From Microbacterium sp. Root61 (lineage in GTDB: Bacteria; Actinomycetota; Actinomycetes; Actinomycetales; Microbacteriaceae): DNA of 64,000 bases. Both the position numbers and the translations under genes were made by a program. Below are positions 33,582-58,487 of this stretch, one piece after another; the stretch's first letter is position 1, and every line of letters starts with the position of its first letter. The stretch is taken from positions 2,725,760-2,789,759 of the forward strand of contig NZ_LMGU01000001.1 of NCBI RefSeq assembly GCF_001427525.1. The letters run 5' to 3'. The notes below the pieces were generated by a model. It worked only from the letters and a program-made list of their open reading frames with translations, was not told the origin of the DNA and ran no database searches.

Positions 33582-33629
33582 CGATGCTCGTGCACGACGA
33601 AGTGTTCCCGCAATCAGGAGGTTCTTTTC

Positions 33630-37579: not shown

Positions 37580-37583
<4 letters not shown>
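36420..37583 (+). CDS. Acetyl-CoA acyltransferase (thiolase)
   Basis: A 387-residue degradative-type thiolase that cleaves a 3-oxoacyl-CoA. Catalytic residues are all present: Cys89 in DRQCGSSQQ, His342 in GHPLGGSG and Cys372 in CEGGGMAN. The loop after the first half is short, as in FadA6-like thiolases of ring-derived acyl-CoA pathways rather than long-chain FadA. AGGAGAGG precedes the ATG. It opens a six-gene string joined by 4-base overlaps, so all six proteins are made together. A similar thiolase is encoded at 58.5-59.7 kb. Confidence 0.92.
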
Positions 37584-40156
<2,573 letters not shown>

Positions 40157-40160
<4 letters not shown>

Positions 40161-41203: not shown

Positions 41204-42354
41204 CCCGCAGCACGATCTACCGTCCCGAGCACGACGAGTTCCGGACGCTCGTCCGCAGTTTTCTGGAGCGCGAGGTGGTCCCGCGGTTCCCGGAGTGGGA
41301 GAAGCAGGGCCTCGTCCCTCACGACTTCTATCTTGCAGTCGGGGAGCTCGGATTCTTCGGGCTGCGCGCACCGGAAGAGTTCGGCGGCTCCGACCTGGGG
41401 CAGCGGAGCTTCCTCTATTCCTCGATCTGGACCGAGGAATGCTCCCGCGCCGGGGTTTCTCTCGGTGGAGCCGCAACGCACGTGAATCTCGTGATGCCGT
41501 ACATCCTCGCGCTGGGCACAGCGGAGCAGAAGCAGCGATGGATCCCACCGATGGTCGAAGGCAGGCTGATGGGGTCGATCGCGATGAGCGAGCCCGAGAC
41601 GGGATCCGACCTCGCCGGGATGAAGACGCGCGCACGGCGTGAGGGCGACCGATGGATCCTCGATGGAGCGAAGACCTTCATCACGGGAGGCATCAACGCG
41701 GACCTCATCGTCGTCGTGGCCCGGACGAGCGATCACGACAACCGGAGGGACGGGCTTTCCCTGTTCGTCGTCGAGGGGACCGCAGCGGGTTTCGCTCGAG
41801 GACGAAACCTCGAGAAGATCGGGCTCAAAGCGACCGACACCGCGGAACTCTTCTTCGAAAGCGTCGAGCTCCGTGATGATGCTCTCCTCGGTGAGGAGGG
41901 CAAGGCATTCAGTTACCTCGCGCAGAACCTCGTTCAGGAGCGGCTCGGCATCGCCCTCGGCGCGCAGGTCTCCGCCGAGACGGCCCTGGAGATCACTGTC
42001 GATTACGTGACCCAGCGCAAAGCTTTCGGGCAGCCGGTGAGCTCGTTCCAGAACACCAAGTTCCAGCTGGCGACCTGCAGACTGGAGATCGCGGCCGGCC
42101 GGGCACTCATCGACCTGTACATGCTGAGTCACGAACGAGGGGAGCTCACCGCCGTCGAGGCATCTATGGCGAAGGTCTACTGCACGGAGCTGCAGAACCG
42201 TGTGATCGATGTCTGCCTGCAACTGCACGGCGGCTACGGATTCATGTCGGACTACCGCATCGGCAAGATGTATACCGACGCGCGCATCAGCCGTATCTAC
42301 GGCGGTACCAACGAGGTTCAGCGAGGCATCATCGCCAAGTCGCTCGGCCTGTGA
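41200..42354 (+). CDS. Acyl-CoA dehydrogenase, long/branched-chain type
   Basis: A 384-residue FAD enzyme oxidising an acyl-CoA at C2-C3. FAD and substrate motifs are IAMSEPETGSDLAG (about 127-140) and FITGGINADL (about 160). The catalytic base sits in the helix after QERL as Glu260, the position used by LCAD and isovaleryl-CoA dehydrogenase, while the MCAD-type site in IYGGTNE is Gly368. This suits branched or bulky substrates. It closes the six-gene coupled string; a LysR gene follows after 56 bases in the same direction. Confidence 0.92.
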   Translation: MTRSTIYRPEHDEFRTLVRSFLEREVVPRFPEWEKQGLVPHDFYLAVGELGFFGLRAPEEFGGSDLGQRSFLYSSIWTEECSRAGVSLGGAATHVNLVMPYILALGTAEQKQRWIPPMVEGRLMGSIAMSEPETGSDLAGMKTRARREGDRWILDGAKTFITGGINADLIVVVARTSDHDNRRDGLSLFVVEGTAAGFARGRNLEKIGLKATDTAELFFESVELRDDALLGEEGKAFSYLAQNLVQERLGIALGAQVSAETALEITVDYVTQRKAFGQPVSSFQNTKFQLATCRLEIAAGRALIDLYMLSHERGELTAVEASMAKVYCTELQNRVIDVCLQLHGGYGFMSDYRIGKMYTDARISRIYGGTNEVQRGIIAKSLGL

Positions 42355-42410: not shown

Positions 42411-43370
42411 ATGGACCTGCAGCAGCTGCGGTACTTCACAGCGGTCGCCACGCATGGGAGCATTAGTGCCGGTGCGACCGCGGTCGGGGTGACCCAACCC
42501 ACGATCTCGCAGGCGCTGCAGGGTCTCGAGCATGAGATGAAGACCCAGCTGTTCGCTCGCGTCGGACGCGGGATGGTGCTGACCTCCGCCGGCTACGCGC
42601 TCCTCGGGCCCGCACGTCGGGTTCTTCGTGCGTCTGGCGCCGCACGAGACACCCTCAACAATCGGGGCCGAGGATTGGCCGGTCGCCTTGATGTCTCCAT
42701 GTCACCTTCCGCGCTCGCCGGCGTCGTTCCGCGGATGCTGTCCACATTCCTTCGCGGGAATAAGGGCGTCACTCTGAATGCGCGCGCACTCGTTGGCGAT
42801 GCGGAGATCCCCGCTGTCCTGCATGAGCGGTTGGCGGACGTGGTCTTCACACGTCTTCCTCTGACCGCGGACCCCGCTCTGGGACAGGACCAGCATCCTT
42901 TGACCGTTCTGGAAGTCGGTTCCAGCGAGGTGCTCTTCGCCGAGCCGCCCGGGGACTCGCCGCCGGACCCACTCGATGACGAGCCCGTTCCCTGGCACGG
43001 CCGCGGTACGTCGCGCAGGATCCTCGCACCGCCGTCCGACTACGCGAACTCCGCGCTGAACGGACCCATTTCCGCGCTCGGCGTCGGTGATCTTCCGCCC
43101 GTCGTGGCGGCGCGTCGCGAGACGCGGCTCGCGCTGGTGGCCGCCGGGGTCGGCGCGACCTACATCGGCGCGTCACTGGCTTCGACGTCACGGCGCCACG
43201 GAGTCGGGGTCCGCACCATGGAGCCGCCGCTGATCCATCGGATCGGGATGGTCTACGACGCGGCAGGCCTGTCCGACGTCGCTGCGGCCTTCGTCGCGGT
43301 GGTTCGTTCTGAGGCGAATGCGAGGGACAGGAATGCATCGGCGGCCGGTGACGGTGGACCGTCCCGATAG
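42411..43370 (+). CDS. LysR-family regulator 1
   Basis: A 319-residue LysR regulator with the N-terminal winged helix (MDLQQLRYFTAVATHGSISA, then VGVTQPTISQALQGLE) and a two-subdomain effector region from about residue 90. It follows the first catabolic string on the same strand, and its last 118 bases overlap the 3' end of the convergent second LysR gene, so C-terminal tails of both are specified by the same DNA. It probably responds to a pathway acid or CoA ester. Confidence 0.9.
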   Translation: MDLQQLRYFTAVATHGSISAGATAVGVTQPTISQALQGLEHEMKTQLFARVGRGMVLTSAGYALLGPARRVLRASGAARDTLNNRGRGLAGRLDVSMSPSALAGVVPRMLSTFLRGNKGVTLNARALVGDAEIPAVLHERLADVVFTRLPLTADPALGQDQHPLTVLEVGSSEVLFAEPPGDSPPDPLDDEPVPWHGRGTSRRILAPPSDYANSALNGPISALGVGDLPPVVAARRETRLALVAAGVGATYIGASLASTSRRHGVGVRTMEPPLIHRIGMVYDAAGLSDVAAAFVAVVRSEANARDRNASAAGDGGPSR

Positions 43371-44170
43371 GCGATCCCGATCTCGCGCATGACTGGCGGA
43401 TCGACCCTGTAGAGCGGCACGCCGGGAAGCATCACATCGGCGACGCGTTCGGGGATGAATGTGGCGACCGCGCCGCCCTGCACGAGTTCCCACAGGAGCT
43501 GGCGGTCCATGCAGGTGGCGCGGATGTCGCCGAGCAATCCCGCGATGGTGCGGAGGCTGGGAGTGTGGCCGCCCTCGTCCCGGGACACGATCCCCATTGG
43601 CAGCCGTGAGATCGCCGACGCGGGGATGCGACCTCCGTACCCGGCGAGGGCTGTCACGGTCCCGGCGACGAGCAGCTCCTCGACACCGAACCGCTCGGCG
43701 ATGATCGAGGACTCCGCGACCGGGAGTTCCACGAGAGCGGCATCGGCGGCACCGGAGCGCAACAGCGATATCGCGTGCGATGACGTTCCGACATCCTCGA
43801 TGTGCACGCTCACCCGCGGGTGGCACCGGAGGAAGGCGTCGACCAGACCGGCGAGCGGATGGATGGCGAGCGTGGATGCCGCGGCGATCGTCAGCCGTCC
43901 GGCGCGCAGCTCGACGACGTTGCGCACACGATCCGATGCATCGTCGACGAGTGCCAGAACATCACGAAGCGACTCCGCCAGCGCAAGGCCCTCGGACGTG
44001 GGTCGCAGCTCACGTCCCACACGGTCGAAGAGGAGGGTGTCGAACTGGGATTCGAGCGTCCTGATCGCCTGCGAAAGCGATGGCTGGGAGATGAAAAGCT
44101 CGCGGGCTGCACGAGTAATCCCCCCGTGATCGACGACCGCCAGGAAGTAGCGCATCTGGCGCAGCTCCAT
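43253..44170 (-). CDS. LysR-family regulator 2
   Basis: A 305-residue LysR regulator with HTH MELRQMRYFLAVVDHGGITR then FISQPSLSQAIRTLE. It is divergent from the second catabolic string (starting at 44299), the usual layout for a LysR gene and its target. ATG 44170 is chosen at the conserved start; an in-frame ATG 21 codons upstream adds non-conserved residues and would cover the direct repeats at 44179-44205. Its 3' end overlaps that of LysR 1 by 118 bases. Confidence 0.9.
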   Translation of the reverse strand: MELRQMRYFLAVVDHGGITRAARELFISQPSLSQAIRTLESQFDTLLFDRVGRELRPTSEGLALAESLRDVLALVDDASDRVRNVVELRAGRLTIAAASTLAIHPLAGLVDAFLRCHPRVSVHIEDVGTSSHAISLLRSGAADAALVELPVAESSIIAERFGVEELLVAGTVTALAGYGGRIPASAISRLPMGIVSRDEGGHTPSLRTIAGLLGDIRATCMDRQLLWELVQGGAVATFIPERVADVMLPGVPLYRVDPPVMREIGIAYRDGPPSPAADAFLSLAFASERTTATKAAATSDRPAAS

Positions 44171-44178
44171 GCCCTCAC

Positions 44179-44298: not shown

Positions 44299-45369
44299 GT
44301 GAAGGCAACGAGCGAACGGCAGGCGACAGCCTGGGCTCGACGGATCGCACCGGCGCCGGAAGAGGTCCGGCCGGGGCTGTGGGCCATCGCCCTACCCGCC
44401 GGGGGCAACCCGATCGCGTACACGATCGACTATGTCTTCATCACCGATGACGGGATCGCCCTGGTCGACACAGGCTGGGCCACGGAGGCGTCCGCTACCG
44501 CACTGGCGAAGGAACTGGCGGCCATCGGCTACTCCATCACCGACATCTCCGCCATCCTCATCACCCACATGCACCCTGATCATTTCGGTCTGGTTCCGAG
44601 GATCCTGCGGGCGAATCCGGATTGCCGATTGTTCATGCACGACGCGGATCTGCGGCTTGTGGACGGGCGATCAGACGCGCTGCGCCAGCGGACAACTCCT
44701 CGCTGGCAGGAACTCATGGTCTCCGTCGGTGCGCCGGGTTCCTACGAGATCACGACCCGCGCCATGGTGACCAACCGGGTCGACGACGACATAGCATCCC
44801 AGGTTGTCACGCTGGCGCCCGACCAGGTGATCACGCTGGGCAGTTGGTCGATTCGCGCGTTGTGGACGCCGGGACACACCCCGGGCCACCTCTGCTTCCT
44901 CGTGGAGGATCATGCGTTGCTGATCTCCGGAGACCACATCCTCCCGACGATCACTCCGCAGGTGACGCAGCTGTCCGATCCCGCGGATGACATTCTCGGC
45001 AACTACCTCTCCTCCCTGCGGGCTCTGCGATCGCTGGACGTGGTCGAAGTGCTGCCCGCGCATCAGTACCGCTTCACCGGCCTCGTAGAGCGCATAGATG
45101 AGCTGCTCGCACATCACGAGCGCCGCTTCGCGCTGCTTGAGAACGCGGCCGCGCGCTCGCCTGGACTGACCTGCTACGACCTCGCGCACGCCCTGGATTG
45201 GCGGGATCCGCTGGTGCGGATGCCGACGGATCAGGCGCGGATGGCGGTGAAAGAGACCCTGGCCCACTTGGTGCACATGCAGGGCGCGGGGCGGATATCA
45301 GCACGAATCGGGCCGCCGACGACCTGGTGGGCGGCCGATGTGATGACGACGAGAAGAGGAATTCGATGA
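44299..45369 (+). CDS. Metallo-beta-lactamase-fold hydrolase
   Basis: A 356-residue binuclear metal hydrolase. The metal motif THMHPDHFG gives His90, His92, Asp94 and His95; further ligands are the His of GHTPGHLCF, the Asp of LISGDHIL and the His of LPAHQYRF. A winged-helix-like C-terminal segment follows from about 270, as in the glyoxalase-II/LACTB2 branch. A thioesterase or ring-lactone hydrolase for a CoA intermediate fits the operon. GTG 44299 is used with GTGGAG upstream; an in-frame ATG at 44257 is possible. It opens a ten-gene string. Confidence 0.85.
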   Translation: MKATSERQATAWARRIAPAPEEVRPGLWAIALPAGGNPIAYTIDYVFITDDGIALVDTGWATEASATALAKELAAIGYSITDISAILITHMHPDHFGLVPRILRANPDCRLFMHDADLRLVDGRSDALRQRTTPRWQELMVSVGAPGSYEITTRAMVTNRVDDDIASQVVTLAPDQVITLGSWSIRALWTPGHTPGHLCFLVEDHALLISGDHILPTITPQVTQLSDPADDILGNYLSSLRALRSLDVVEVLPAHQYRFTGLVERIDELLAHHERRFALLENAAARSPGLTCYDLAHALDWRDPLVRMPTDQARMAVKETLAHLVHMQGAGRISARIGPPTTWWAADVMTTRRGIR

Positions 45370-46277
45370 CGACGGATCGACACTGCGAAGGCCGGGTGGC
45401 GATTGTCACCGGAGCGGGTCAGGGCCTCGGTGCTGCCCATGCGCGGCGTCTGGCTCGAGCGGGAGCGATGGTGGTCGTGAACGACCTCGGTGTCCTGCTC
45501 GACGGCGGCCAGGATGCCGACAAGCCGGCCGTGCGCCTCGTCGAAGAGATCCGTGCGGACGGCGGGGAAGCGGTGCTGAGCGCACACGACGTCTCCCGGT
45601 GGGACCAGGCTGGCGAATTGGTGCGCACGGCGATCGAAGCATTCGGACGACTCGACATCCTCGTGAACAATGCGGGAGTTCTGCGTGATCGCTCACTTGC
45701 CCGCCTGACGGAGGCGGAGTGGGACGCCGTCATTGCGGTCCATCTGAAGGGGACAGCGGCGACCATGCACCACGCTGCAGAGCACTGGCGCAGCCTTGCC
45801 TCGGACGACGAGCATCCGTTGGATGCCCGCATCATCAACACGACATCGGTCGCGGGCCTATTCGGCAATCCCGGTCAGACGAACTATGCCGCGGCGAAGG
45901 CAGGCATCGTCGCGATGACGCTGGTAGCGGCCCTCGAGCTGTCCCAGCACGGTGTCACAGCAAATTGCATCAGCCCGGGAGCGGCGACCCGGATGACAGC
46001 GTCGATCCCCGGTCGCGACGCGCAGGCGATGTCGGTGGATGACACGTTCTCCCCACGGTGGCCGGCGGCGATCGTCGAATGGCTCGCCTCCCCGATGTCC
46101 GCCGGCGTGACGGGGCGGGTGTTCATGACATCCGGCCGAAGCCTGGGGATCGCGCAGGGATGGGAGCGCGGCCCGTCGACGGCACCGGTCGAAGACGTCG
46201 CCGATGTCGACACCGCATTGCGTGGACTCTTGGCGGAAGCGCGTTCGAACTCGGCCATGCGAGGCGGGACTTGGTGA
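45366..46277 (+). CDS. SDR-family (3R)-hydroxyacyl-CoA dehydrogenase, MFE2-like
   Basis: A 303-residue short-chain dehydrogenase. The NAD loop is TGAGQGLG at 15-22, NNAG is intact near 101, and the active site is Tyr174-x3-Lys178. After the loop the segment VVVNDLGVLLDGG with an extended acidic insert matches the dehydrogenase half of peroxisomal multifunctional enzyme type 2 and its bacterial side-chain-oxidising relatives. Together with the following MaoC gene it would complete one (R)-specific hydration and oxidation round. Start overlaps the previous stop in ATGA. Confidence 0.88.
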   Translation: MTTDRHCEGRVAIVTGAGQGLGAAHARRLARAGAMVVVNDLGVLLDGGQDADKPAVRLVEEIRADGGEAVLSAHDVSRWDQAGELVRTAIEAFGRLDILVNNAGVLRDRSLARLTEAEWDAVIAVHLKGTAATMHHAAEHWRSLASDDEHPLDARIINTTSVAGLFGNPGQTNYAAAKAGIVAMTLVAALELSQHGVTANCISPGAATRMTASIPGRDAQAMSVDDTFSPRWPAAIVEWLASPMSAGVTGRVFMTSGRSLGIAQGWERGPSTAPVEDVADVDTALRGLLAEARSNSAMRGGTW

Positions 46278-47125
46278 TCAATGCCGACGCGGTCGGGGAA
46301 ACGACAGAGCCTCGCCGACACTCCTGGTCCGCCGATGACACGCTTCTGTACGCACTTGCGGTCGGTGCCGGCGCCGACGAACTCGAGTTGACGACTGAGA
46401 ACACGGACGGCGTCGACCTCATCGCAATCCCCACCTTTGCGGCGGTCCTGGGGGGAGGCGCCGGAGAGCTGCGATCGCGCCTCGGCTCGTGGGCGCCCGG
46501 CGCGGTCGTACACGGCACGCAATTCATCGAGTTCGACTCGCCGCTGACGGTCTCCGGCGACATCGAGATCGTGGGTCGCGTGGCGGCCGTCGAGGACAAG
46601 GGCACAGGGGCGCTGGTGGAGATCGAGTCGCGAGCAGTGGATGCGGCGACCGGTGCATCCTTGTTCACCTCCACCACTGGGTTGTTCATCCGTGGCGAAG
46701 GTGGTTTCGGCGGGTCACGATCGCACGGCTCCAGTGTTCTGCCCAAGGCGGGGCACGATCGCGAGCCCGACCTCGTCCTCGCCGCTTCTACGAGGACGGA
46801 CCAAGCGCTGCTCTACCGGTTGTGCGGCGACCGCAACCCCCTCCACTCGGATCCCGGCTTTGCGAAACGCGCAGGGTTCCCTCGCCCGATTCTGCACGGT
46901 CTGTGCACGTGGGGCATCACTGCGCGAGTACTCGGGCGCGCGGCCACCGACGGTGACTTTTCGCGCATCGCCGCATTCGGGGGTCGCTTCCGGGGCCCGG
47001 TGCTTCCTGGCGATGAGTTGAGGATCGACGCGTGGCGCTCGTCGGACGCCGAAATCCACTTCCGTGTGCGTGTCGACGATCGCGTGGTCATCGAGGCCGG
47101 GCTGCTCAGATTGGCCGACCGATGA
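46274..47125 (+). CDS. MaoC-type (R)-enoyl-CoA hydratase
   Basis: A 283-residue double-hotdog hydratase of the MFE2/hydratase-2 type. The second half has the complete motif YRLCGDRNPLHSDP with catalytic Asp186 and His191; the first hotdog half (about 20-150) lacks it and probably binds CoA substrate, as in eukaryotic hydratase 2. It acts on 2-enoyl-CoA to give (3R)-hydroxyacyl-CoA, pairing with the preceding dehydrogenase. GTG start overlaps the SDR stop, and its own stop overlaps the DUF35 gene. Confidence 0.92.
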   Translation: MINADAVGETTEPRRHSWSADDTLLYALAVGAGADELELTTENTDGVDLIAIPTFAAVLGGGAGELRSRLGSWAPGAVVHGTQFIEFDSPLTVSGDIEIVGRVAAVEDKGTGALVEIESRAVDAATGASLFTSTTGLFIRGEGGFGGSRSHGSSVLPKAGHDREPDLVLAASTRTDQALLYRLCGDRNPLHSDPGFAKRAGFPRPILHGLCTWGITARVLGRAATDGDFSRIAAFGGRFRGPVLPGDELRIDAWRSSDAEIHFRVRVDDRVVIEAGLLRLADR

Positions 47126-47541
47126 CCGCGGTCCTGTTGCCGGTGCCCCACCCGACGCCCGAGACGCAGCCGTTCTGGGACGGCACGGCGCAGCGCAAGC
47201 TCGTGATCCAGCAGTGCGCGGAATGCTCGATGTGGGTGTTCCATCCGCGTCTGCGCTGCGATCGCTGCGGATGTGACGCGCTGGTGTGGACGGATGCATC
47301 CGGTCGTGGTCGGCTGTGGTCCTACATCATCGTGCACCGGCCCGAGCCAGGGTTCGAGGATCGTGCACCCTACGCCCTCGGCATCATCGAACTCGCAGAG
47401 GGGCCTCATCTGATGGGCTCGCTCGCGATGGTCGATCCGACGCCGGAGTCACTTCGGATCGACATGCCGGTGGTCGTCGACTTCGAGCCGCGCGGCGAGA
47501 TGTTCGTTCCCGTGTGGCGCGTGGACGAGGCAGCATCATGA
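47122..47541 (+). CDS. DUF35 (rubredoxin zinc ribbon plus OB-fold) protein
   Basis: A 139-residue protein with an N-terminal helix (FWDGTAQRKLVIQQC), a zinc ribbon Cys32-x2-Cys35...Cys46-x2-Cys49, and an OB-fold that probably binds CoA. Small DUF35 proteins work as obligatory partners of thiolase-like enzymes, as in Ltp2/ChsH2 aldolases of steroid side-chain breakdown and the BbsA/BbsB thiolase. The thiolase-like gene comes next with an ATGA overlap, so the two surely form one complex. Confidence 0.9.
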   Translation: MTAVLLPVPHPTPETQPFWDGTAQRKLVIQQCAECSMWVFHPRLRCDRCGCDALVWTDASGRGRLWSYIIVHRPEPGFEDRAPYALGIIELAEGPHLMGSLAMVDPTPESLRIDMPVVVDFEPRGEMFVPVWRVDEAAS

Positions 47542-48668
47542 CCGGGTGCGTGATCGTCGGCGCTGCCGAGACAGACCGGATCGGCGTCGTGCCCGACCGG
47601 TCGGTGCTGGCGTTGAACGTCGAGGCCGGCTGGCGTGCGCTCGAGGATGCAGGGCTGTCCATCGCGGACATCGACGGCATCGCCGGGGCCTACTCGCCGC
47701 ACGGCGTCGCTGACGCGATGGGAATCTCGCCCACGTGGGTCGATTCGACGAACGTCGGTGGGTGCTCGTTCATGATTCACGTCCGGCATGCGGTCGCTGC
47801 GATCCGCGCGGGCTACGCGACCCGGGTGCTCATCACCCACGGCGAGTCCGGCCGATCGCGCGTCGGGGTCCCACCGCGTCCGCGCGATCCGGCTTCGATG
47901 ACGGGTCAGTTCGAGGAGCCCTACGGGGCACGGGCGCCCTACACGAAGTTCACACTGCCGGCGCTGCGGTACATGCACCAGCACGGCCTGGACGAGACCG
48001 ATCTGGCCGAAGTGACCGTGGCGCAGCGTCGATGGTCGCATCGAAACCCGCGCGCGGGCCGAAAGGGCTTGCTCACGACCGAGGAGGTTCTCGCCGCGCC
48101 GCTGGTCGCGTACCCGTTTCGCGCGCCAGAGGTGTGCATGCTCACCGATGGGGGCGGCGCGCTCGTGGTCACCGCGAGGGATGACGCACCGCCGTCGACG
48201 CGCGGTCGGGCGGTGGACATTCTCGGCACGGGGGAGGGAACGGACTCACTCCTCATCTCCGAACAGCGTGATCCCGGTGTATCCAGAGCGATCAGAGCCG
48301 CTGCTGATTCCGCGTTCGCGGAGGCGCGACTGCGGCGCGAAGAGATCCAGCACGTGATGTCCTACGACGCGTTCGCCCACCTGCCATGGATCGGGTTGGA
48401 GAGTATGCGCCTGGTGGCACCCGGCGGTGCGGCGGAACTGATCCGAAGCGGCGCGACGTCGCCTGGCGGCACGCTCCCCCTGAACACCAACGGCGGCGGG
48501 TTGGCATACACCCACACCGGAATGTACGGAATGTTCGCGATCCAGGAATCAGTGCGGCAAGTCCGTGGTGAAGCAGCGGCCCAAGTACCGGGAGTTCGCG
48601 TAAGCCTCGCCCTGGGCCTGGGCGGCATGCAGTCCGCTGCCGGCGTGCTGGTACTCGGTCGAATCTGA
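47538..48668 (+). CDS. Thiolase-like (SCP2/Ltp2-type) protein, partner of DUF35
   Basis: A 376-residue thiolase-fold protein of the lipid-transfer-protein branch. STNVGGCSFMIHVRHA places Cys76 near the usual nucleophile region; NTNGGGLAYTHTG carries the His loop; but the final Cys-x-Gly of true thiolases is replaced by GLGGMQSAAG. Loss of that acid/base Cys, and pairing with a DUF35 protein, are features of Ltp2-type retro-aldolases that split a 3-hydroxy-acyl-CoA into a ketone or aldehyde and a short acyl-CoA. A retro-Claisen thiolase of the BbsB type is the alternative. Confidence 0.85.
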   Translation: MTGCVIVGAAETDRIGVVPDRSVLALNVEAGWRALEDAGLSIADIDGIAGAYSPHGVADAMGISPTWVDSTNVGGCSFMIHVRHAVAAIRAGYATRVLITHGESGRSRVGVPPRPRDPASMTGQFEEPYGARAPYTKFTLPALRYMHQHGLDETDLAEVTVAQRRWSHRNPRAGRKGLLTTEEVLAAPLVAYPFRAPEVCMLTDGGGALVVTARDDAPPSTRGRAVDILGTGEGTDSLLISEQRDPGVSRAIRAAADSAFAEARLRREEIQHVMSYDAFAHLPWIGLESMRLVAPGGAAELIRSGATSPGGTLPLNTNGGGLAYTHTGMYGMFAIQESVRQVRGEAAAQVPGVRVSLALGLGGMQSAAGVLVLGRI

Positions 48669-48680
48669 AATGAGGAAAGC

Positions 48681-49490
48681 ATGACAACTGATGAGTCCAT
48701 CCGTATAGAGCACCAGGGGCCGATCGCGGTCGTTTGGCTGAACCGCCCGGAGGAGCGCAACGCGTACACGCCCGATATGGCGGTGCGCCTTCAGCGCGCG
48801 CTGGTGGAGAGCGACCGCGACGAGTCGATTCGCGCGATCGTGGTGACCGGAGCCGGCGACAACTTCGGCGTCGGCGCAGACTTCGGAATCGATTGGCGTG
48901 ACCCCGAAGCGCACGCAGTCGAATCGATGAGCCGCCCCGAGGAAGCCCCGTGGAATCTCGACACCCCCATCATCGCGGCCATCAACGGTGATGCGATCGG
49001 CGTGCACCTGACGTGGGCGATGCAGTCCGACATCCGTCTCGTCGCCGACGACGCGCGCATCGCCTTCTCCTTCAACCGAGTGGGGATCATTCCCGATCGC
49101 AACTCGATGTGGCTTCTCCCACGGCTGGCAGGATTCGGGCCGGCCATGGACCTCCTGCTTACGGGGAGGACGATTTCCGGAGAGCGCATGGCCCAGTGGG
49201 GGATGGCATCGGAGTCGCTGCCGCGGGAGGAGGTCCTCACCCGTGCATTGGCGATGGCGCACGAGATCGCCGAGCGCTGTGCGCCCGCGTCGGTCACAGT
49301 GACCAAGCGCCTCATGTACGAATTCCTTGAAGAGACCGACCGACTCAAGGCGTACAACCGGGAACGCCGGACTCTGAACTGGGTCCGTACGCTGGGCGAG
49401 ACCCTCCGCGGGATCGAGGCGTTCAAGACGCGCTCTCGACCTGAGTGGGGCTCGACGAAGAAGGTGCGCCTCCCCTCGGAGCTGCGATGA
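48681..49490 (+). CDS. Crotonase-family protein without hydratase glutamates (2)
   Basis: A 269-residue enoyl-CoA hydratase/isomerase family protein. The oxyanion regions FGVGADFGID and IGVHLTWAMQSD are recognisable, but the two hydratase glutamate positions are Thr111 and Phe131, so water addition by the usual mechanism is excluded. The segment FNRVGIIPDRNSMWLLPRL resembles the isomerase/PaaG-like and ring-processing members. It begins 12 bases after the thiolase-like gene with GAGGAAAG as ribosome binding site; its stop overlaps the synthetase start. Confidence 0.88.
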   Translation: MTTDESIRIEHQGPIAVVWLNRPEERNAYTPDMAVRLQRALVESDRDESIRAIVVTGAGDNFGVGADFGIDWRDPEAHAVESMSRPEEAPWNLDTPIIAAINGDAIGVHLTWAMQSDIRLVADDARIAFSFNRVGIIPDRNSMWLLPRLAGFGPAMDLLLTGRTISGERMAQWGMASESLPREEVLTRALAMAHEIAERCAPASVTVTKRLMYEFLEETDRLKAYNRERRTLNWVRTLGETLRGIEAFKTRSRPEWGSTKKVRLPSELR

Positions 49491-51415
49491 CGAACGTGAA
49501 TGTGGAGACCCTGCTCGCCCCGGCGCGCGTCGCGATCATCGGCTCGACTTCCAAAGACTCGGGGCTCGGTCGTCGTGTCGTCCGCCATCTAGAGGTCGCA
49601 GCGTTCGCCGGCGAGATCGTGGTGGCGGACCCGACGGTTCCGTTGGAGGCGGTGGTGGATGTCGCCGCCATCGCGGTGCCTGCTGAGCACGTTCAGGGCG
49701 TACTGGACCGGCTCGAAGGCCATGCTCGCCACGCGCTCGTGATGAGCTCGGGATTCGAAGAGTCCGGACGCGCCGCGCTCCGCGCTCCCGAAGGCGTCTC
49801 GCTGATTGGTCCGAACTCCGTCGGCGTGTACTGCGCCGAGACCCGGCTCGTCCTCACGTTCGCGCAGGCGTTCGACGACCTCGTGGACTGCGCTCCCGGA
49901 CAGGGCGCGTTCCTGATCTCGCAGAGCGGCGCCTTCGGCGTACGCATCGCACGCGCGGCCCGCGCGAGTGGGTTCGCGCTGGACGGGCTGGTCGCCACGG
50001 GCAACGAGACGTCCGTGAACGCGACCGAGTTCGGACGTGCGCTACTGGCGTCCGCCCGCCGGCCCAAGGTTTTGATGATGTATCTGGAAACCGTGCGCGA
50101 GGTCGAGTCGCTCGTCGAACTCCTCATCGAGGCGCGCTCGGCCGGTGTGGCCGTGGTGGTGTTGTACGGCGGGCGCACTCGTGCCGGCGCCGCGGCCGCA
50201 GCCTCGCACACAAGTGCGCTCTCCACCGACTTCGACGTGCTCGCCGAGCTGCTGCGTTCGCTCGGTGCCCACCTCGTGCGCACCGATCGCGAACTGCTGA
50301 TCGCCGCGCGGGCCCGTGCCCACGCTGGCGTCGCGGCGGGACGGCGCGTCGCCGTCGTAACGGGCTCCGGTGGGGCGGGTGTCGTCGCCGCGGACGCACT
50401 CGAGGAGATCGGGGCCATCGTGCCGCCTCTCAGCCCGAGTCTGCAGGCGGAAGTCATGGCGCTGCTGCCGCCGTTCGCCTCGGCGGGCAACCCTGTGGAT
50501 GTCACGGCACAAGCGGTTGGGGATGCGGCGCTGATCGGTGCGGTCTGCCGAGTGATCGCGCGCAGCGGTGAGGTCGACGCGGTCCTGAGCATCGGCCGAG
50601 CTGAGTTCGAGCCCGAGCTCCGCGGCAACGAAGGGATCCCGATGGTCCTGGGTCTGCTCGACGGGATGGATGTCGGCCCCGGAGGGGATGGCGTGACCGT
50701 CGTCGGGGATATCGACAGCGCTGCGGTGGCCGTCGCGGCCGTCGTCGCCGACGGGGGCGATCCGTCCGGAGACTTTCGGCTGGTTCGGCCGACACCTGCG
50801 CTCCGAGGCACCGTTCCGACCGCGAGTGACAGTCTCCGGATCTTCGCTGAAGCCGGCATCGACGCGGCGCCCTGGGCCGGTGCGGGCACCGTCGACGAGG
50901 CGCGCATCCACGCTGAACGGCTCGGATGGCCGGTCGTCCTGAAGATCGACGGCGACGCGTCGACGCACAAAGCACTCGCCGGCGGTGTGCGCCTGAACGT
51001 CGGGCCTGACGACATCGCGGCGGAAGCCGGGCGACTCCTCGCCGCGAGCGGGCGCATCATCGTCGCATCCCAGCTGTCGGCATCTCTGGAGCTTTTCGTT
51101 GGCGTCCGCGACGACGAGCGATTCGGTCTCGTCGTGACCGCCGGTCTCGGAGGATCGCACGTCGAGTTGACGGGGCGCACGGTGACGGTGCCCGCCGGAG
51201 TCTCGTCTGAGAAGCTGGCGGCGCGACTCGCCGAGGTCGTCTTCGACCGCGGCGGCGACCGGTATCGCGGACTCGGACAAGGCTTGGCCCGCATCGCTGC
51301 GCGCATGGTGGAGACTGCCGGGCAGGGGTATGCACTGGTCGAGGCCAATCCGATCGGTGTCGTCGACGGCGCACTGATCGCCCTGGACGCGAGGGTGGTC
51401 GGTCACGATGAGTGA
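49487..51415 (+). CDS. NDP-forming acyl-CoA synthetase family protein
   Basis: A 642-residue single-chain ligase of the ACD type. Order: CoA-binding Rossmann domain (about 8-130, ARVAIIGSTSKDSGLG), a succinyl-CoA-ligase-like domain (SQSGAFG near 144, AAASHTSALSTDFD with the conserved His), and the ATP-grasp domain from about 440 (WPVVLKIDGDASTHK). It could make or hydrolyse a CoA thioester with ADP/ATP, giving a second route of activation besides the AMP-forming ligase at the end of the string. It is slightly shorter than the usual 700 residues. Overlaps the next gene by 8 bases. Confidence 0.85.
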   Translation: MTNVNVETLLAPARVAIIGSTSKDSGLGRRVVRHLEVAAFAGEIVVADPTVPLEAVVDVAAIAVPAEHVQGVLDRLEGHARHALVMSSGFEESGRAALRAPEGVSLIGPNSVGVYCAETRLVLTFAQAFDDLVDCAPGQGAFLISQSGAFGVRIARAARASGFALDGLVATGNETSVNATEFGRALLASARRPKVLMMYLETVREVESLVELLIEARSAGVAVVVLYGGRTRAGAAAAASHTSALSTDFDVLAELLRSLGAHLVRTDRELLIAARARAHAGVAAGRRVAVVTGSGGAGVVAADALEEIGAIVPPLSPSLQAEVMALLPPFASAGNPVDVTAQAVGDAALIGAVCRVIARSGEVDAVLSIGRAEFEPELRGNEGIPMVLGLLDGMDVGPGGDGVTVVGDIDSAAVAVAAVVADGGDPSGDFRLVRPTPALRGTVPTASDSLRIFAEAGIDAAPWAGAGTVDEARIHAERLGWPVVLKIDGDASTHKALAGGVRLNVGPDDIAAEAGRLLAASGRIIVASQLSASLELFVGVRDDERFGLVVTAGLGGSHVELTGRTVTVPAGVSSEKLAARLAEVVFDRGGDRYRGLGQGLARIAARMVETAGQGYALVEANPIGVVDGALIALDARVVGHDE

Positions 51416-52658
51416 TGTGACCCAACCACTGGTCGAACTTCTGTCGAGCGCGCTCCCGGTCGAGTGGGTGCGCGCGGTGCGCACGCAGGATGACGAGGCC
51501 TTGGCGGATGCGTCCGCCGATCAGCAGACCGCGCGGGCCGCTGCCGCAGCCGCAGCCGTCGAAGGGTGGCTGACCCCCGAATGGCCACGACGCTACGGCG
51601 GGCGTGAGCTGGATGCCGACTCCGCTGTGCACGTGCGCCGGACCCTCGCGCGGTGGCGGGTCGGACTCGTGGAGAGCGCCATCGGGGCCGGATGGCTGGG
51701 TCCGGCGATCCTGCAGTTCGGCAACGACGATCAGCGCGATCGGCTGTTGCCTCGGATCGCTCGCAACGAAGACCTCTGGTGCCAGCTGTTCAGCGAGACC
51801 GAAGCGGGGAGCGACCTCGCCTCCGTTCGCACGACGGCGCGCCGCGACGGGGACTCGTGGGTCATCGACGGGGGCAAGATCTGGACAAGCCGGGCCGACC
51901 TTGCGTCCTGGGGATTGGCGGTGACGCGCACGGACGGCTCTGTGCGCAAGCACGCGGGTCTCACGTGCTTCTGCATTCCCATGGGAGCTGAAGGAGTGGA
52001 GATCCGACCCATTCGTCAGATGACGGGGGACGCCGAGTTCTTCGAGGTCAGGCTCGACGGCGTGCGTGTGCCGGACAGCGACCGCATCGGATCGGAGGGG
52101 CAGGGGTGGGAGATCGTCCGGGCCGTTCTGGCGTTCGAGCGGCGTGCCGGTTCGGGTGCGGGGGCGGCCACTCCCGGATCCGTGGTGGGACGGGGTGTCG
52201 AGCAGCTCCTCGACCGACACCTGCCGACAGCAGGTCCCTGGGCGCGTACCCGCTTGATCGACACGTGGGTTGAGGCGACGCTGATCGGATTGAACAACGA
52301 ACGCAACGCGGCCTTGGCAGCGGCCGGTCGCGAGCTTCTCGGACGCGGATCTCCGGTCAACAAGGTCCTGCAGGCCGAACATACCAAGCGCCTGCAAGCG
52401 CTGCGGATGGAGCTCGGAGGCCTGGCCGCCGTGGCGCCCGGTCTCGAGGACGAGGTGGCGGTCCGCGATCAGTGGGCGTACCTGCGGGCCCAGCCCAAGA
52501 CCGTCGCCGGCGGCACCAGCGAGGTGCTGCGGGATCAGATCGCCGAGCGCGGGCTGGGGATGCCGCGGTCCGTCGACCCGAGTCGACGTGTCGCGTGGGA
52601 CGAGTTCGTGTCCGGCGCAGGTCGAACGGAAGGTGCAACCGATGTGGCTCCCCAGTGA
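51408..52658 (+). CDS. Acyl-CoA dehydrogenase, first subunit of a two-gene enzyme
   Basis: A 416-residue acyl-CoA dehydrogenase. FSETEAGSDLASVRTTA, the WTSRADLASWG strand and the C-terminal VAGGTSEVLRDQIAERGLGMPR are typical of the larger subunit of alpha2beta2 enzymes such as ChsE1-ChsE2 (FadE28/29) that oxidise steroid side-chain acyl-CoAs. The overlapping next gene encodes a shorter dehydrogenase, which supports a heteromer. No independent promoter is seen. Confidence 0.88.
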   Translation: MSDVTQPLVELLSSALPVEWVRAVRTQDDEALADASADQQTARAAAAAAAVEGWLTPEWPRRYGGRELDADSAVHVRRTLARWRVGLVESAIGAGWLGPAILQFGNDDQRDRLLPRIARNEDLWCQLFSETEAGSDLASVRTTARRDGDSWVIDGGKIWTSRADLASWGLAVTRTDGSVRKHAGLTCFCIPMGAEGVEIRPIRQMTGDAEFFEVRLDGVRVPDSDRIGSEGQGWEIVRAVLAFERRAGSGAGAATPGSVVGRGVEQLLDRHLPTAGPWARTRLIDTWVEATLIGLNNERNAALAAAGRELLGRGSPVNKVLQAEHTKRLQALRMELGGLAAVAPGLEDEVAVRDQWAYLRAQPKTVAGGTSEVLRDQIAERGLGMPRSVDPSRRVAWDEFVSGAGRTEGATDVAPQ

Positions 52659-53688
52659 AGAAGAAGCCGTGTTCGGCGCGACGGTCACGGATCTCCTGGC
52701 CGAACGCGGTGCGGTGGCCGCCACGAGGGCCGGTGCGGATCGCGCCGAGGCGTGGAACGAGGCCTTGTGGCGTGACCTCGAGCAGATGGGCGTCGCCGAA
52801 CTCTTGGCCGAGGGTGAGCTCGGCGCGGCGTTGTCGGTGGCCGACGCGCTCGGACGCCATCCGGCGAATGTACCGGCGCTGTCTACGGCGGTCCTTGCGC
52901 CCGCGCTCGCGCAGAGCGCCGGCTTCGAGCTGCCTTCCGGATCGACCTGGGCGGTCGGCCCCTTCGATGAGGCGGGGCGGCTGTCGCGTTCGCCCTTGAC
53001 GATCGAGCCGGACGGTCGCGTCACAGGGATGCTGCCGCTCACACTGGGCGCGGCGTGGGCGGAGGCCGTGATCACCGTGGATGCAGACGGATCATCCGTC
53101 CGTGCGATCGACCTGCGTCAAGAGGGCGTGCGAGTGCGTCCTCGAGCAGCTCTGGACACGACGCTGCCGTTCGCGGATGTCGAGTTCGACAGCGCCTCCT
53201 CGCGGGTACTCGCCGTCTGCACCTCGGGCGTTGCGCAGCGCAGCATTGCCCATGCCGAGGCGATCGGCGCGCTGTGGTTGTCGGCCGGGGAGATCGGCAC
53301 GGCCCAGCAGCTCCTCGATATGGCAGTCACCTACGCCGGCCAACGGGTGCAGTTCGGGATGCGGATCGGGGAGCGTCAGGCGATCACCCATAAGTGCGCG
53401 GACCTGCTGATGCTGATCGAATCAGCGAGATCCGCGCTGTGGGCCGCTGTAGACGTCGATCCGGATGGCGAGGATTGGCCGCGCGCCATCTCCCTCCTGC
53501 GACTGGCCAGCAGCCGTGCTGTCGACGCCGCCGCACAGCAGTCCTTCCAGATCCACGGGGGGATCGGGTTCACCTGGGAACACGATCTGCACCTCCTCTT
53601 CAAACGCGCGATTGCGTCACGCCTGATCTTCGGCGGCGACGAGTTGCATCGAGATCGCCTGTTCACAACACTGATGGAGAAGAAATGA
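52642..53688 (+). CDS. Acyl-CoA dehydrogenase, second (smaller) subunit
   Basis: A 348-residue acyl-CoA dehydrogenase homologue. The N-terminal and middle domains are shortened and the usual FAD-loop motif is hardly recognisable, while the C-terminal helical domain is intact (QFGMRIGERQAITHKCADL, then QIHGGIGFTWEHDLHLLFKRA). This division fits the smaller subunit of a heteromeric enzyme whose FAD sites lie at subunit interfaces. ATG 52642 has GGAAGG upstream and overlaps the previous gene by 17 bases. Confidence 0.85.
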   Translation: MWLPSEEEAVFGATVTDLLAERGAVAATRAGADRAEAWNEALWRDLEQMGVAELLAEGELGAALSVADALGRHPANVPALSTAVLAPALAQSAGFELPSGSTWAVGPFDEAGRLSRSPLTIEPDGRVTGMLPLTLGAAWAEAVITVDADGSSVRAIDLRQEGVRVRPRAALDTTLPFADVEFDSASSRVLAVCTSGVAQRSIAHAEAIGALWLSAGEIGTAQQLLDMAVTYAGQRVQFGMRIGERQAITHKCADLLMLIESARSALWAAVDVDPDGEDWPRAISLLRLASSRAVDAAAQQSFQIHGGIGFTWEHDLHLLFKRAIASRLIFGGDELHRDRLFTTLMEKK

Positions 53689-55229
53689 CTCGGTCGTTCC
53701 CGAACTATGTAGACGCGTTCCCCGAACGTGCCGCGATCATCAGTGACGGTGGCCGGGTGCACACCTATCGCGATGTGGCCATCCGGGCCAACAAGATCGG
53801 CCATCTCCTTGAGAAGGTCGGATACATCGAGGGCGATGTCGTCTGCGCGCTGCTGCCGAACGGCCCCGACATGTTGATCGTGCAGCGTGGCATCCTGCAG
53901 TTGCCGGTCTACTTCTCGACGATCAATTGGCACCTCACCCCCCCCGAAGCCGCATACATCCTTCAGGACTCCCACGTTCGCCTGTTCTTCACGACGTCGG
54001 CGCTGGAGGAGACCTCACGTGCAGCCATGGAACTGGCCGGCATCAGCGCGGACGTCATCGTCATCGTCGACGGTGCCGAGGACGATCCTCGATCGCTCGA
54101 CGCGCTTATCGCGGACCTCCCGGCCGAACGACTGCATAGTGCGAAGGCCGGCACTCGACGCCTCTATACGTCCGGCACGACCGGTCGGCCGAAGGCCGTC
54201 CGCCGTCCGCTCGCAGGAATCTCTCCCGAAACGGCTGCTGCAGCCCACGTCACCAGGGCTGCGTTGTACGGCGTCGATCACGAGGAGGGCGTGTACTTGA
54301 GTGTTGCGCCGATGTACCACGCTGCCCCGCTCTCGTATGCCGACCAAGCCCTCGAACTCGGGCACACTGTCGTGATCATGCCCAAATGGGGGGCCCAAAC
54401 CGCCATCGCTGCGATCGAGCAATACGGCGTGACATGGACCTACATGGTGCCGCTGATGTTCCAAGAGATGCTCGCGCTGCCCTCGGAGTCGCGATCGGGC
54501 GTGGGCACACTCCGTGCCATCGTGCACACCGCCGCACCGTGCCCGCCCCTGGTAAAGCGCGCCATGATCGAGTGGGTCGGCCCGATCCTGACCGAGCTTT
54601 ACGGCGGGACTGAAGGAAGTGCCACTGTCATCCGCTCCGACGAATGGCTGGATCACCCTGGGAGCGTCGGTCGCGCGCGGCCGGGCGTTCGGATGGAGAT
54701 CCGCGACGACGACAGCCACGTGTTGCCGCCCCGAGAGATCGGTCACATCTATTTCGAGAACGAGGCGGCGGCGTTCGTCTACGACAACGACGACGCTAAG
54801 ACGGCGTCGACGCGTGTCGGGTCTGCTGTCACGCTCGGAGACATCGGGTACATCGATGAAGACGGCTATCTCTTCCTGTGCGACCGCAAGGCCGACGTCG
54901 TGATCAGCGGGGGCGTGAACATCTACCCCGCTGAGACGGAGCACGCGCTGAAAGAGATCGAGTGGGTTCTCGATGCGTGTGTCATCGGCGTCCCCGACGA
55001 GCGATGGGGCGAGTCCCTGCACGCCGTGGTGGTCACGAGTGCAGACGCGCCAGCAGACGAGGAACAGCGCACGGAGGAACTCACTGCTGCACTGCGCACC
55101 CGCATCGCGGGCTTCAAAGTGCCTCGATCCTTCGAGTATGCCGACGAGATTCCCTACTCGGAAGCGGGCAAGATGCTCAGGAAGGTCGTCCGCGATGCCC
55201 GCGCCGGCGTCACCGTGTTGCAGCGCTGA
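53685..55229 (+). CDS. AMP-forming acyl-CoA synthetase
   Basis: A 514-residue ANL ligase. Phosphate loop YTSGTTGRPKA starts at Tyr161, ELYGGTEGS lies near 305, DRKADVVISGGVNIYPAE near 402, and the catalytic Lys is Lys496 in EAGKMLRK. Sequence resembles FadD3/FadD13- or cyclohexanecarboxylate-type ligases for bulky acids. It ends the ten-gene string, with ATG overlapping the previous stop and GGAG upstream. A strong terminator follows. Confidence 0.9.
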   Translation: MTRSFPNYVDAFPERAAIISDGGRVHTYRDVAIRANKIGHLLEKVGYIEGDVVCALLPNGPDMLIVQRGILQLPVYFSTINWHLTPPEAAYILQDSHVRLFFTTSALEETSRAAMELAGISADVIVIVDGAEDDPRSLDALIADLPAERLHSAKAGTRRLYTSGTTGRPKAVRRPLAGISPETAAAAHVTRAALYGVDHEEGVYLSVAPMYHAAPLSYADQALELGHTVVIMPKWGAQTAIAAIEQYGVTWTYMVPLMFQEMLALPSESRSGVGTLRAIVHTAAPCPPLVKRAMIEWVGPILTELYGGTEGSATVIRSDEWLDHPGSVGRARPGVRMEIRDDDSHVLPPREIGHIYFENEAAAFVYDNDDAKTASTRVGSAVTLGDIGYIDEDGYLFLCDRKADVVISGGVNIYPAETEHALKEIEWVLDACVIGVPDERWGESLHAVVVTSADAPADEEQRTEELTAALRTRIAGFKVPRSFEYADEIPYSEAGKMLRKVVRDARAGVTVLQR

Positions 55230-55290: not shown

Positions 55291-56463
55291 TCAGAGACCG
55301 ATGGACTTCGCGATGATCGTCTTCATGATCTCGCTCGTTCCCCCGTAGATGCGAGCGACCCGCGCATCGGCATAGAGGCGACCGATCGGGTGATCCTGCA
55401 TGTAGCCATACCCGCCGAAGAGCTGCAGGCAGGAGTCGACGACCTCACCGTGCAGCTCGGTGGTGAACAGCTTCACCTGCGCGGCCTCCGACGGGTGGAG
55501 CTCGGCGCGATCGTGACGTCGGATCGCGCGATCGAGCATGGCCTGTCCAGCCGAGATCCGGGCCGCCAGTCCGGCCAGCACGAATCGGGTGTTCTGGAAC
55601 GTGGCGAGCGGCTTTCCGAACACATCGCGGTCACGCACGTGCGCGATCGTGACGTCGAGCGCCGCGACGGATTGCGCCTGTGAATTCACCGCGATCGACA
55701 GCCGCTCCTGAGCGAGATTCTCGCTGAGGTAGTCGAAGGCGCGCCCTACGTCGCCCAGGATGTTCTCGTCGGGGACGCGCACGTCCTCGAAGAAGAGGTC
55801 GCACGTGTCCTGGGAGTGCAGTCCCAGCTTGCGTTGCGCCGTCCCGCGGGTGAAGCCCGCCATGCCCGGCTCGACGACAGCCAGCGCCAGCCCCCGGCGC
55901 CGATCGCCGTCGGATCCGCTGCGTGCAACCACGATGATGAGGTCGCTCTGCGTGCCGCCCGTGATGAAGGTCTTGGAGCCGTTCAGTACCCACCCATGGG
56001 CACCCCGCTTCAGTGAGGTGCGGATTCCTGCGAGGTCACTGCCGGTCGCCGGCTCGGTCATCGCGATCGATGCCATCCGTTCGCCCGTGAGTAAGGCGGG
56101 GAGCCATCTGTCGCGCTGTTCGGGCGTGCCCAAGCGGTAGATGTACGGCAGCACCACGTCCATGTGCACCCGTAGAGACCCGAAGGACGCCAGGGCATAG
56201 GCGACCTGCTCGGTCACCACGCAGTTGTACGAGAACGGAGCTCCGCCACCGCCATGCTCCTCGGGGACGGAGAGTCCGATGAGCCCGACCGCTCCGGCGG
56301 CGCGGTAGGCCGAGCGTGGCACCGCGCCGGCGTCCGTCCACTCACGTTGGAACGGCACGACGTCGCGCCGCAGCATCGCGGCGACGCTCTCGCCGAAGTC
56401 GCGGTGCTCCTCGCCATAGGCATCGCGGTCCTCCCAGGCGAGGACCGATGGCTGCTCAGCCAC
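55291..56463 (-). CDS. Acyl-CoA dehydrogenase with unusual active-site positions
   Basis: A 390-residue acyl-CoA dehydrogenase related to the enzyme at 41.2-42.4 kb (both have QERL and YGGT segments and end IIAKS-GL). FAD motifs IAMTEPATGSDLAG and FITGGTQSDLIIV are normal. The residue aligned with the helix Glu of LCAD is Val266, and the MCAD-type site is Gly374, so neither known base position is acidic. Another residue may serve, or the chemistry may differ. The GTG start overlaps the previous gene by 8 bases. Last gene of the minus-strand string. Confidence 0.88.
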   Translation of the reverse strand: MAEQPSVLAWEDRDAYGEEHRDFGESVAAMLRRDVVPFQREWTDAGAVPRSAYRAAGAVGLIGLSVPEEHGGGGAPFSYNCVVTEQVAYALASFGSLRVHMDVVLPYIYRLGTPEQRDRWLPALLTGERMASIAMTEPATGSDLAGIRTSLKRGAHGWVLNGSKTFITGGTQSDLIIVVARSGSDGDRRRGLALAVVEPGMAGFTRGTAQRKLGLHSQDTCDLFFEDVRVPDENILGDVGRAFDYLSENLAQERLSIAVNSQAQSVAALDVTIAHVRDRDVFGKPLATFQNTRFVLAGLAARISAGQAMLDRAIRRHDRAELHPSEAAQVKLFTTELHGEVVDSCLQLFGGYGYMQDHPIGRLYADARVARIYGGTSEIMKTIIAKSIGL

Positions 56464-58476: not shown

Positions 58477-58487
58477 GTACTTTCCCT

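Follow-up and report, generated by a model that had tools for sequence, protein, structure and literature searches.

A DUF35-linked thiolase-like protein of Microbacterium sp. Root61 is a candidate retro-aldolase in a probably non-steroid carboxylic acid gene island

Here, we analyzed a stretch of 64,000 nucleotides from the genome of Microbacterium sp. Root61 (4.02 Mb, 2 contigs, 99.9% complete), called the window in the following, which encodes a thiolase-like protein directly behind a DUF35 protein and a MaoC-type hydratase. We propose, with a probability of about 0.55, that the thiolase-like protein acts in complex with the DUF35 protein as a retro-aldolase that cuts the (3R)-hydroxyacyl-CoA made by the hydratase, and that it belongs to a gene island for the catabolism of a carboxylic acid, branched or alicyclic but not a steroid, or of the corresponding alcohol or aldehyde. 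The original prediction, made from the letters of the window, had favored aldolytic over thiolytic chain shortening, and the loss of the nucleophile, the placement in a tree and a near-constant DUF35 neighbor all point in the same direction.

The only Pfam family recognized in the thiolase-like protein was Thiolase_C_1, and the nearest solved sequences were 4u4e (a putative thiolase from Sphaerobacter thermophilus), followed by CtSal (9myr), Ltp2 (6ok1) and BbsB (7pxp). Gly75 occupies the position of the nucleophilic cysteine of thiolases and Tyr276 that of the histidine in the HDxF motif (YDAF here), leaving two hallmarks of SCP2-type and PF22691 thiolases, the cysteine and HDxF, both missing. 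His326 falls into the column of the histidine in the thiolase GHP motif and is aligned to Tyr344 of TcLtp2 and Gln352 of CtSal. Catalytic acids have been assigned to Cys304 in Sal and Tyr344 in Ltp2 (PMC12329534). At these columns the window protein carries Ala278 and His326, and as neither acid is present, we class it as neither a Sal nor an Ltp2. The loss of a terminal Cys-x-Gly motif, on which the original prediction had also relied, was confirmed as such (segment LGLGGMQSAAG). However, the same aligned segment lacked the motif in all 13 cysteine-nucleophile relatives checked, its absence is hence uninformative in this family, and we rejected it as evidence for an aldolase. Fold comparison was likewise discarded as a discriminator, with aldolases, TbSLP and a true thiolase tying within about 1.5 Z.

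Gly75, Tyr276, Ala278, His281, Tyr324 and His326 were invariant in the best 120 homologues, window protein included, and in 80 of 80 loci. These are the best 120 of 7994 proteins that, out of 8000 scored, reached E 1e-20 or lower, and the wider family is large. The 80 loci had been retrieved with the peptide patterns HTGMYGM or MxYDAFAH, which in part predetermines their agreement at positions 276-281 and 326; neither pattern covers Gly75 or Tyr324. The residue states also bear on a more conventional reading, in which MaoC and the adjoining short-chain dehydrogenase (SDR) would carry out ordinary β-oxidation of the MFE-2/SCP-x type and the resulting 3-ketoacyl-CoA would be cleaved thiolytically, either via Cys76 or without a covalent intermediate. 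Yet position 76 is not conserved among the 120 proteins (Thr in 79, Cys in 39, Gly and Ser in one each) while its neighbor Gly75 is, and HDxF has been replaced by YDAF. As a separate observation, His281 of the YDAFAH segment, invariant in the 120 proteins, is missing in 4u4e and in a paralogue from the same genome; it may distinguish a subgroup by substrate or be another candidate for the acid.

A tree of 53 rows was computed from the window protein, four solved sequences, eleven homologues, genes from the loci of nine congeners and PF22691 paralogues from the Root61 genome, Rhodococcus phenolicus, Thermomonospora and Parvibaculum. Its groups were labelled from motifs, and the motif columns were kept in the alignment. 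Dropped were L004 (the same gene as L003), 7pxp (a partial sequence) and the distant, unclassified rows L103, L106, L109 and L112, none of which has a DUF35 match. The 13 cysteine thiolases made up one side of a branch with 100/100 support, and the other side held 40 nucleophile-less rows including CtSal and TcLtp2. The grouping of the window protein with true thiolases, named beforehand as an outcome that would speak against an aldolase, was not seen, and the tree sets it apart from the thiolytic enzymes. Together with 4u4e it falls into a Tyr-His group of 30 rows on one side of a 99/95 branch, for which a single change was needed in 99% of the bootstrap trees. TcLtp2 clusters outside this group with row L107 and rows carrying YDGF, and the rows labelled Sal/Ltp2-like form no single group, CtSal being a long branch. 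Two further observations concern the relatives. The nucleophile-less YDGF group (L113, L114, L116, L118) has an arginine in the column occupied elsewhere by His, Tyr or Gln and a DUF35 match in the fetched stretch, possibly reflecting yet another catalytic arrangement. In addition, the Root61 genome contains a second Tyr-His thiolase-like gene (C1:2050338-2051459), 40% identical and with a DUF35 frame in the fetched stretch, which lies on another branch of the Tyr-His group.

The DUF35 protein is a separate polypeptide of 139 amino acids with cysteines 32, 35, 46 and 49 intact, and the solved chains nearest to it are the DUF35 parts of two aldolase complexes, 9myr_B (CtShy) and 6ok1_B (ChsH2). 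In 79 of the 80 loci a DUF35 frame ends at most 200 bases upstream of the thiolase-like gene or overlaps it; in the exception only 177 bases of contig precede the match. When the window DUF35 protein served as query, a match was present in the fetched stretch at 17/17 Tyr-His loci, 8/8 other nucleophile-less loci and 1/12 cysteine-thiolase loci. Of the 17 Tyr-His loci, however, 9 lack independence, having been fetched via the window protein, and distant DUF35 proteins would escape this query. The linkage suggests that the two proteins form a complex. In favor of thiolysis, DUF35-type proteins also pair with thiolases that keep their cysteine, BbsAB and the archaeal thiolase complex being examples.

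All genes named in the original prediction were found as adjacent, overlapping open frames on the plus strand, contiguous from 45366 to 53688. The MaoC hydratase has the predicted Asp186 and His191 and, in addition, Asn188, all within a GDRNPLHSDP motif that is invariant across five clusters described below. Both an MFE-2_hydrat-2_N and a MaoC domain lie on its single chain, which resembles the MFE-2 hydratase-2 proteins 3khp and 1s9c; a few of its homologues are named HtdY by their sources. The active site of the SDR is intact as well (Y174AAAK, pattern YxAAK), which together with the gene order SDR-MaoC-DUF35-thiolase is what thiolytic β-oxidation would call for. Nevertheless, two cysteine-bearing thiolases are already encoded in the cluster, and with the residue and tree evidence given above we regard thiolysis by the window protein as quite improbable. 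The two acyl-CoA dehydrogenase (ACAD) genes proposed to form one enzyme, ACAD1 and ACAD2, are adjacent in all five clusters, in line with pairing; the opposite outcome, unpaired dehydrogenases, was not encountered. ACAD1 retains a glutamate in the (F/L)ER motif, which we take to be the catalytic base by analogy with isovaleryl-CoA dehydrogenase, and its best solved match is Tcur3483 (135 bits).

The extent of the module had been underestimated, and its nine genes are part of a unit of 30 genes. This island measures about 33 kb, from 33.4 to about 66.4 kb, and extends beyond the end of the window. A crotonase and an NDP-forming acid-CoA ligase, absent from the earlier list, sit between the thiolase-like gene and the ACAD pair. 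The island genes are as follows (positions in the window; clusters are those of the five genomes compared below).

33435..34736, plus strand: SBP1, NMT1-type ATP-binding cassette (ABC) substrate-binding protein at the left end of the island (Pfam NMT1; homologue in all five clusters)
35085..36167, minus strand: SBP2, second NMT1-type substrate-binding protein (Pfam NMT1_2; besides the window only in the second Microbacterium and Rhodococcus)
36420..37583, plus strand: Thl1, ordinary thiolase with the Cys nucleophile kept (RQCGSS; Pfam Thiolase_N/C and motif)
37580..38383, plus strand: ECHb, crotonase (Pfam ECH_1)
38371..39399, plus strand: NMO/FabK-like flavoprotein (Pfam NMO; FabK model below cut-off)
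39396..40160, plus strand: ECHc, crotonase (Pfam ECH_1)
40145..41203, plus strand: class III CoA-transferase, CaiB-like (Pfam CoA_transf_3)
41200..42354, plus strand: ACADf, acyl-CoA dehydrogenase (Pfam)
42411..43370, plus strand: LysR-type regulator (named from sequence; homologues in all five clusters, 31-63%)
43253..44170, minus strand: convergent LysR-type regulator (named from sequence; homologues in all five clusters)
44299..45369, plus strand: metallo-beta-lactamase-fold hydrolase (Pfam Lactamase_B; in 4/5 clusters, window included)
45366..46277, plus strand: MFE-2-like SDR of the PRK07791 type, YAAAK intact (conserved in five clusters)
46274..47125, plus strand: MaoC / MFE-2 hydratase-2 type enoyl-CoA hydratase, D186-N188-H191
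47122..47541, plus strand: DUF35 protein (zinc ribbon and OB fold), presumed partner of the thiolase-like protein (Pfam zf-ChsH2/OB_ChsH2_C)
47538..48668, plus strand: thiolase-fold protein without nucleophile, predicted retro-aldolase (Gly75, Tyr276, His326)
48681..49490, plus strand: ECH, crotonase, first gene of the ECH-ligase-ACAD1-ACAD2 block
49487..51415, plus strand: NDP-forming acid-CoA ligase, fused subunits (Pfam Succ_CoA_lig/ATP-grasp_5)
51408..52658, plus strand: ACAD1, subunit of the two-gene acyl-CoA dehydrogenase, Glu244 in FER (nearest solved chain T. curvata Tcur3483)
52642..53688, plus strand: ACAD2, second subunit (NCBIfam IpdE2 below cut-off; adjoins ACAD1)
53685..55229, plus strand: AMP-forming acyl-CoA ligase (directly after the thiolase-like gene in 3/5 clusters)
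55291..56463, minus strand: ACADc, acyl-CoA dehydrogenase
56456..57715, minus strand: ACADd, acyl-CoA dehydrogenase
57712..58491, minus strand: SDRb, short-chain dehydrogenase
58488..59678, minus strand: Thl2, ordinary thiolase with the Cys nucleophile kept (RKCGSG)
59675..60844, minus strand: ACADe, acyl-CoA dehydrogenase
60891..61766, minus strand: ABC transporter permease (Pfam BPD_transp_1)
61763..62599, minus strand: ABC transporter ATPase (Pfam ABC_tran)
62743..64000, on to 64185 beyond the window, minus strand: aldehyde dehydrogenase, ALDH (Pfam Aldedh)
64188-65261, beyond the window, minus strand: alcohol dehydrogenase, ADH (Pfam ADH_zinc_N)
65439-66386, beyond the window, minus strand: luciferase-like oxidoreductase (Pfam Bac_luciferase)

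By function, the island comprises four genes of an NMT1-type ABC system, two LysR genes and a metallo-hydrolase, three routes of CoA activation (AMP ligase, NDP-forming ligase and CaiB), a β-oxidation set of six acyl-CoA dehydrogenase genes, three crotonases, MaoC, two SDRs and two ordinary thiolases, and finally the DUF35 and thiolase-like proteins, the NMO/FabK-like flavoprotein, ADH, ALDH and the luciferase-like oxidoreductase. Within the window, the mean GC content at third codon positions (GC3) of called genes of at least 600 bases was 0.904 left of 33.4 kb (24 genes) versus 0.804 to the right (27 genes), and GC3 stays low beyond the window, up to about 66.4 kb. The island has probably been acquired horizontally. 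No tRNA genes were found in the window or in the stretch beyond its right end, and no clean empty site was detected among 20 relatives, of which 14 have the left flank gene and three the right one (Root61 itself counted in both). Family scans of 28 of the 30 island genes, the two LysR genes lying outside these scans, named no P450 or Rieske family. A description of the island as oxygenase-free was nevertheless withdrawn, because monooxygenases occur in the families of both the NMO-like and the luciferase-like flavoprotein. For the luciferase-like protein a Baeyer-Villiger role and a requirement for F420 were considered; its matches to F420/MER-like models are weak. The CofH model stayed below its cut-off in the Root61 genome and had no match in the second Microbacterium carrying the cluster. 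The gene itself is present in 4/5 clusters, one of them in a genome without a CofH match.

Conservation of the island was followed with 31 open frames as queries, a 91-amino-acid frame (33153-33428) being excluded from the counts as it lies inside the flanking gene 32811-33428. A second Microbacterium had matches to all 30 island genes within 40 kb, of which 26 are colinear without interruption. On a 54.7 kb contig of Rhodococcus phenolicus 26/30 genes were present; this contig starts inside ACADd, and the missing genes (ACADe, ABC permease, ATPase and the luciferase-like gene) may be located beyond its start. A Nocardioides and a Thermomonospora each had 26/30 genes (60 kb each) in rearranged order. 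Two blocks kept their order in all five clusters, SDR-MaoC-DUF35-thiolase-like and crotonase-NDP ligase-ACAD1-ACAD2, and they lie apart in the three non-Microbacterium genomes. The dehydrogenase pair is hence not tied to the aldolase-like gene in the way a comparison with the igr genes of steroid degraders suggests. In these Thermomonospora and Nocardioides genomes, the AMP ligase, ADH and ALDH are encoded downstream of the thiolase-like gene and in its direction (Nocardioides has a 1.3 kb gap before ADH). At E 1e-130 the thiolase-like gene is rare, occurring in 3 of 394 genomes sampled from the class, Root61 included. Any thiolase-like match at 1e-60 was found in 15 of 295 genomes of the genus, again with Root61, and apart from it one match had 72% identity and the others 40-56%. 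A supposed fusion of the DUF35 and aldolase genes in R. phenolicus was rejected, as two separate frames are present there; the R. phenolicus DUF35 row was shortened in the five-cluster residue comparison, with gene content unaffected. Other layouts were also noticed. In Nonomuraea and related actinobacteria (loci L014, L016, L017, L020, L021, L022, L027, L037, L061) the DUF35-thiolase-like pair adjoins NDP-forming ligase, ACAD, MaoC and SDR genes on the opposite strand, a recurrent, different arrangement of the same parts. The Thermomonospora cluster neighbors another acyl-CoA cluster (positions 32599-50200 of the fetched region; L140, L141), in which several genes are ligase-like, luciferase-like or ACAD-like and one is distantly thiolase-like, names there coming from sequence matches only.

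Given this gene content, a pathway can be outlined in which the ABC system would import the acid, which would then be activated with CoA and α,β-dehydrogenated, and MaoC would hydrate the product to a (3R)-hydroxyacyl-CoA. In the predicted aldolase reaction the proton of the β-hydroxyl group would pass to Tyr276, the Cα-Cβ bond would break, and His326, standing at the place of the Ltp2 catalytic acid, would protonate the enolate, so that an aldehyde or ketone would be released along with a short acyl-CoA. The product would re-enter the pathway by way of aldehyde dehydrogenase and acyl-CoA ligase, and intermediates that can be oxidized to a 3-keto acid could be handled by the SDR and a true thiolase of the cluster. 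In the Shy-Sal-Sad-ligase logic the aldehyde must be oxidized and re-activated (PMC8399759, PMC12329534), and the AMP ligase, ADH and ALDH genes behind SDR-MaoC-DUF35-aldolase in two clusters match it. The proposed sequence, from a dehydrogenase through a hydratase and a DUF35-bound aldolase to aldehyde dehydrogenase and CoA ligase, is that of bile-acid side-chain removal, where thiolysis would spare the second ligation (PMC8399759).

The protein could instead perform another cysteine-free reaction, such as hydrolytic retro-Claisen cleavage, in which the retained thiolase-type histidine might activate water, or decarboxylation, or could merely be a CoA-binding scaffold for the DUF35 protein. 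For nucleophile-less TbSLP a weak malonyl-CoA decarboxylase activity and no more has been described, while CtSal lacks that activity (PMC12329534). Two points here weigh against a retro-aldolase: CtSal lost its activity when the motif cysteine was changed to the alanine that is native in the window protein (PMC12329534), which means that either the acid or the reaction itself must be different in the Tyr-His family, and an aldolase assay for a member of the Tyr-His group was not found in the literature covered. That Gly75, Tyr276 and His326 never vary among the best 120 argues against a mere scaffold. Overall, we consider this set of reactions unlikely, and retro-aldol cleavage remains our preferred reading.

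We also weighed whether the module could remove side chains from steroids or bile acids while the strain does not attack the rings. Steroid enzymes are among the characterized relatives nearest to the DUF35 and the aldolase-like protein, ACAD1 is closest among solved chains to the Thermomonospora curvata subunit, which we take to be a steroid enzyme too, and P450 matches occur at nine places in the genome, some being fragments of a single gene and all lying outside the island. However, a search of the whole genome gave no match to KshA_C (PF19298), KstD not being searched for, and a single match below cut-off to BphC_D1 (PF22632, HsaC-type dioxygenases); two other actinobacterial genomes with the thiolase-like gene have 8 and 5 KshA_C matches and 5 and 3 BphC_D1 matches above cut-off. 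Because of this deficit the steroid nucleus is an unlikely growth substrate. The cluster moreover brings its own full β-oxidation gene set and recurs in five genomes without steroid-ring genes being recognized in it. We therefore regard a steroid side-chain module as highly improbable, and the non-steroid role suggested by the original prediction was supported as far as these genes reach.

If the retro-aldolase reading is correct, the Gly-Tyr-His site with a free-standing DUF35 protein may constitute a third class of thiolase-fold retro-aldolases, probably with thousands of proteins, many labelled acetyl-CoA acetyltransferase, which here would drive removal of a chain or ring side chain from a non-steroid branched or alicyclic acid without P450 or Rieske enzymes. 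We put this forward tentatively, at somewhat under even odds and from sequence comparisons. One concrete candidate reaction is that of 1-hydroxycyclohexylacetyl-CoA lyase, an activity reportedly described in 1982 for an Arthrobacter growing on cyclohexaneacetate, and we know of no gene for it. In the passages considered, the clades described are Sal, Ltp2, SLP and SCP2, and a Tyr-His class is not among them (PMC12329534, PMC10398937, PMC8399759, PMC5906575, PMC12502768). Open-access literature on DUF35, thiolase and retro-aldol reactions dealt mostly with steroid pathways among the matches listed, and for cyclohexaneacetate catabolism and the cluster-bearing organisms nothing on this pathway appeared in titles or abstract starts among the matches listed. 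Were the retro-aldolase reading true, aldolytic shortening would be a widespread bacterial option rather than a steroid specialty, serving acids whose β-carbon cannot become a ketone. A large misnamed protein group would gain a testable reaction, and biocatalytic CoA-dependent aldol chemistry could take the Tyr-His arrangement as a new point of departure. The conserved cluster provides a defined gene set for finding the substrate.

Among known systems, the chcpca cluster of Rhodococcus aetherivorans BCP1, which serves cyclohexane- and cyclopentanecarboxylate, is similar as an actinobacterial alicyclic-acid β-oxidation system with ligase, dehydrogenases and hydratase; it differs in having eight genes with a BadI-like hydrolase, and the words thiolase and aldolase are missing from the main text (PMC5906575). 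The best PDB sequence match, 4U4E from S. thermophilus, belongs to the same Tyr-His group (99/98 with the window group) and has GGSSF, YDSF and YTHPGMYG, with YDSF in place of YDAFAH, and its entry title states no function. Atf1-ChsH4 of Mycolicibacterium neoaurum likewise combines an aldolase with a free-standing DUF35 protein, and Hsd4A and Atf1 act on the same β-hydroxyacyl-CoA, as the SDR and aldolase might here; however, it belongs to a sterol side-chain pathway, and Atf1 is 56% identical to Sal1 and hence of the Sal type (PMC10398937). The bile-acid aldolase Sal-Shy(DUF35) of Comamonas testosteroni (9MYR; PMC12329534) shares the thiolase fold, glycine at the nucleophile position, the catalytic tyrosine in YDxF/Y, the DUF35 partner, an adjoining hydratase and an aldehyde dehydrogenase that takes the product. 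It differs in its acid, Cys304 (YDCY) versus Ala278, in Gln352 versus the thiolase-type His326, and in its place outside the Tyr-His group; the Root61 DUF35 protein, moreover, is not fused to MaoC and has no steroid context. The likeness to the igr type with Ltp2-ChsH2(DUF35) (6OK1), proposed in the original prediction, did not hold in detail. Ltp2 has Tyr344 and YDHF where the window protein has His326 and YDAF, the latter falls outside the Ltp2 group, and the ChsH1-ChsH2 pair with DUF35 fused to ChsH2 contrasts with a single double-hotdog MaoC chain and a free DUF35 protein. A two-gene acyl-CoA dehydrogenase (ChsE1-ChsE2 in igr) is common to both, but here it travels with a crotonase and an acid-CoA ligase, its block stands apart from the aldolase block in 3/5 clusters, and the whole is a 30-gene cluster without recognized steroid-ring genes. 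In our reading, the module would work like igr, but igr it is not.

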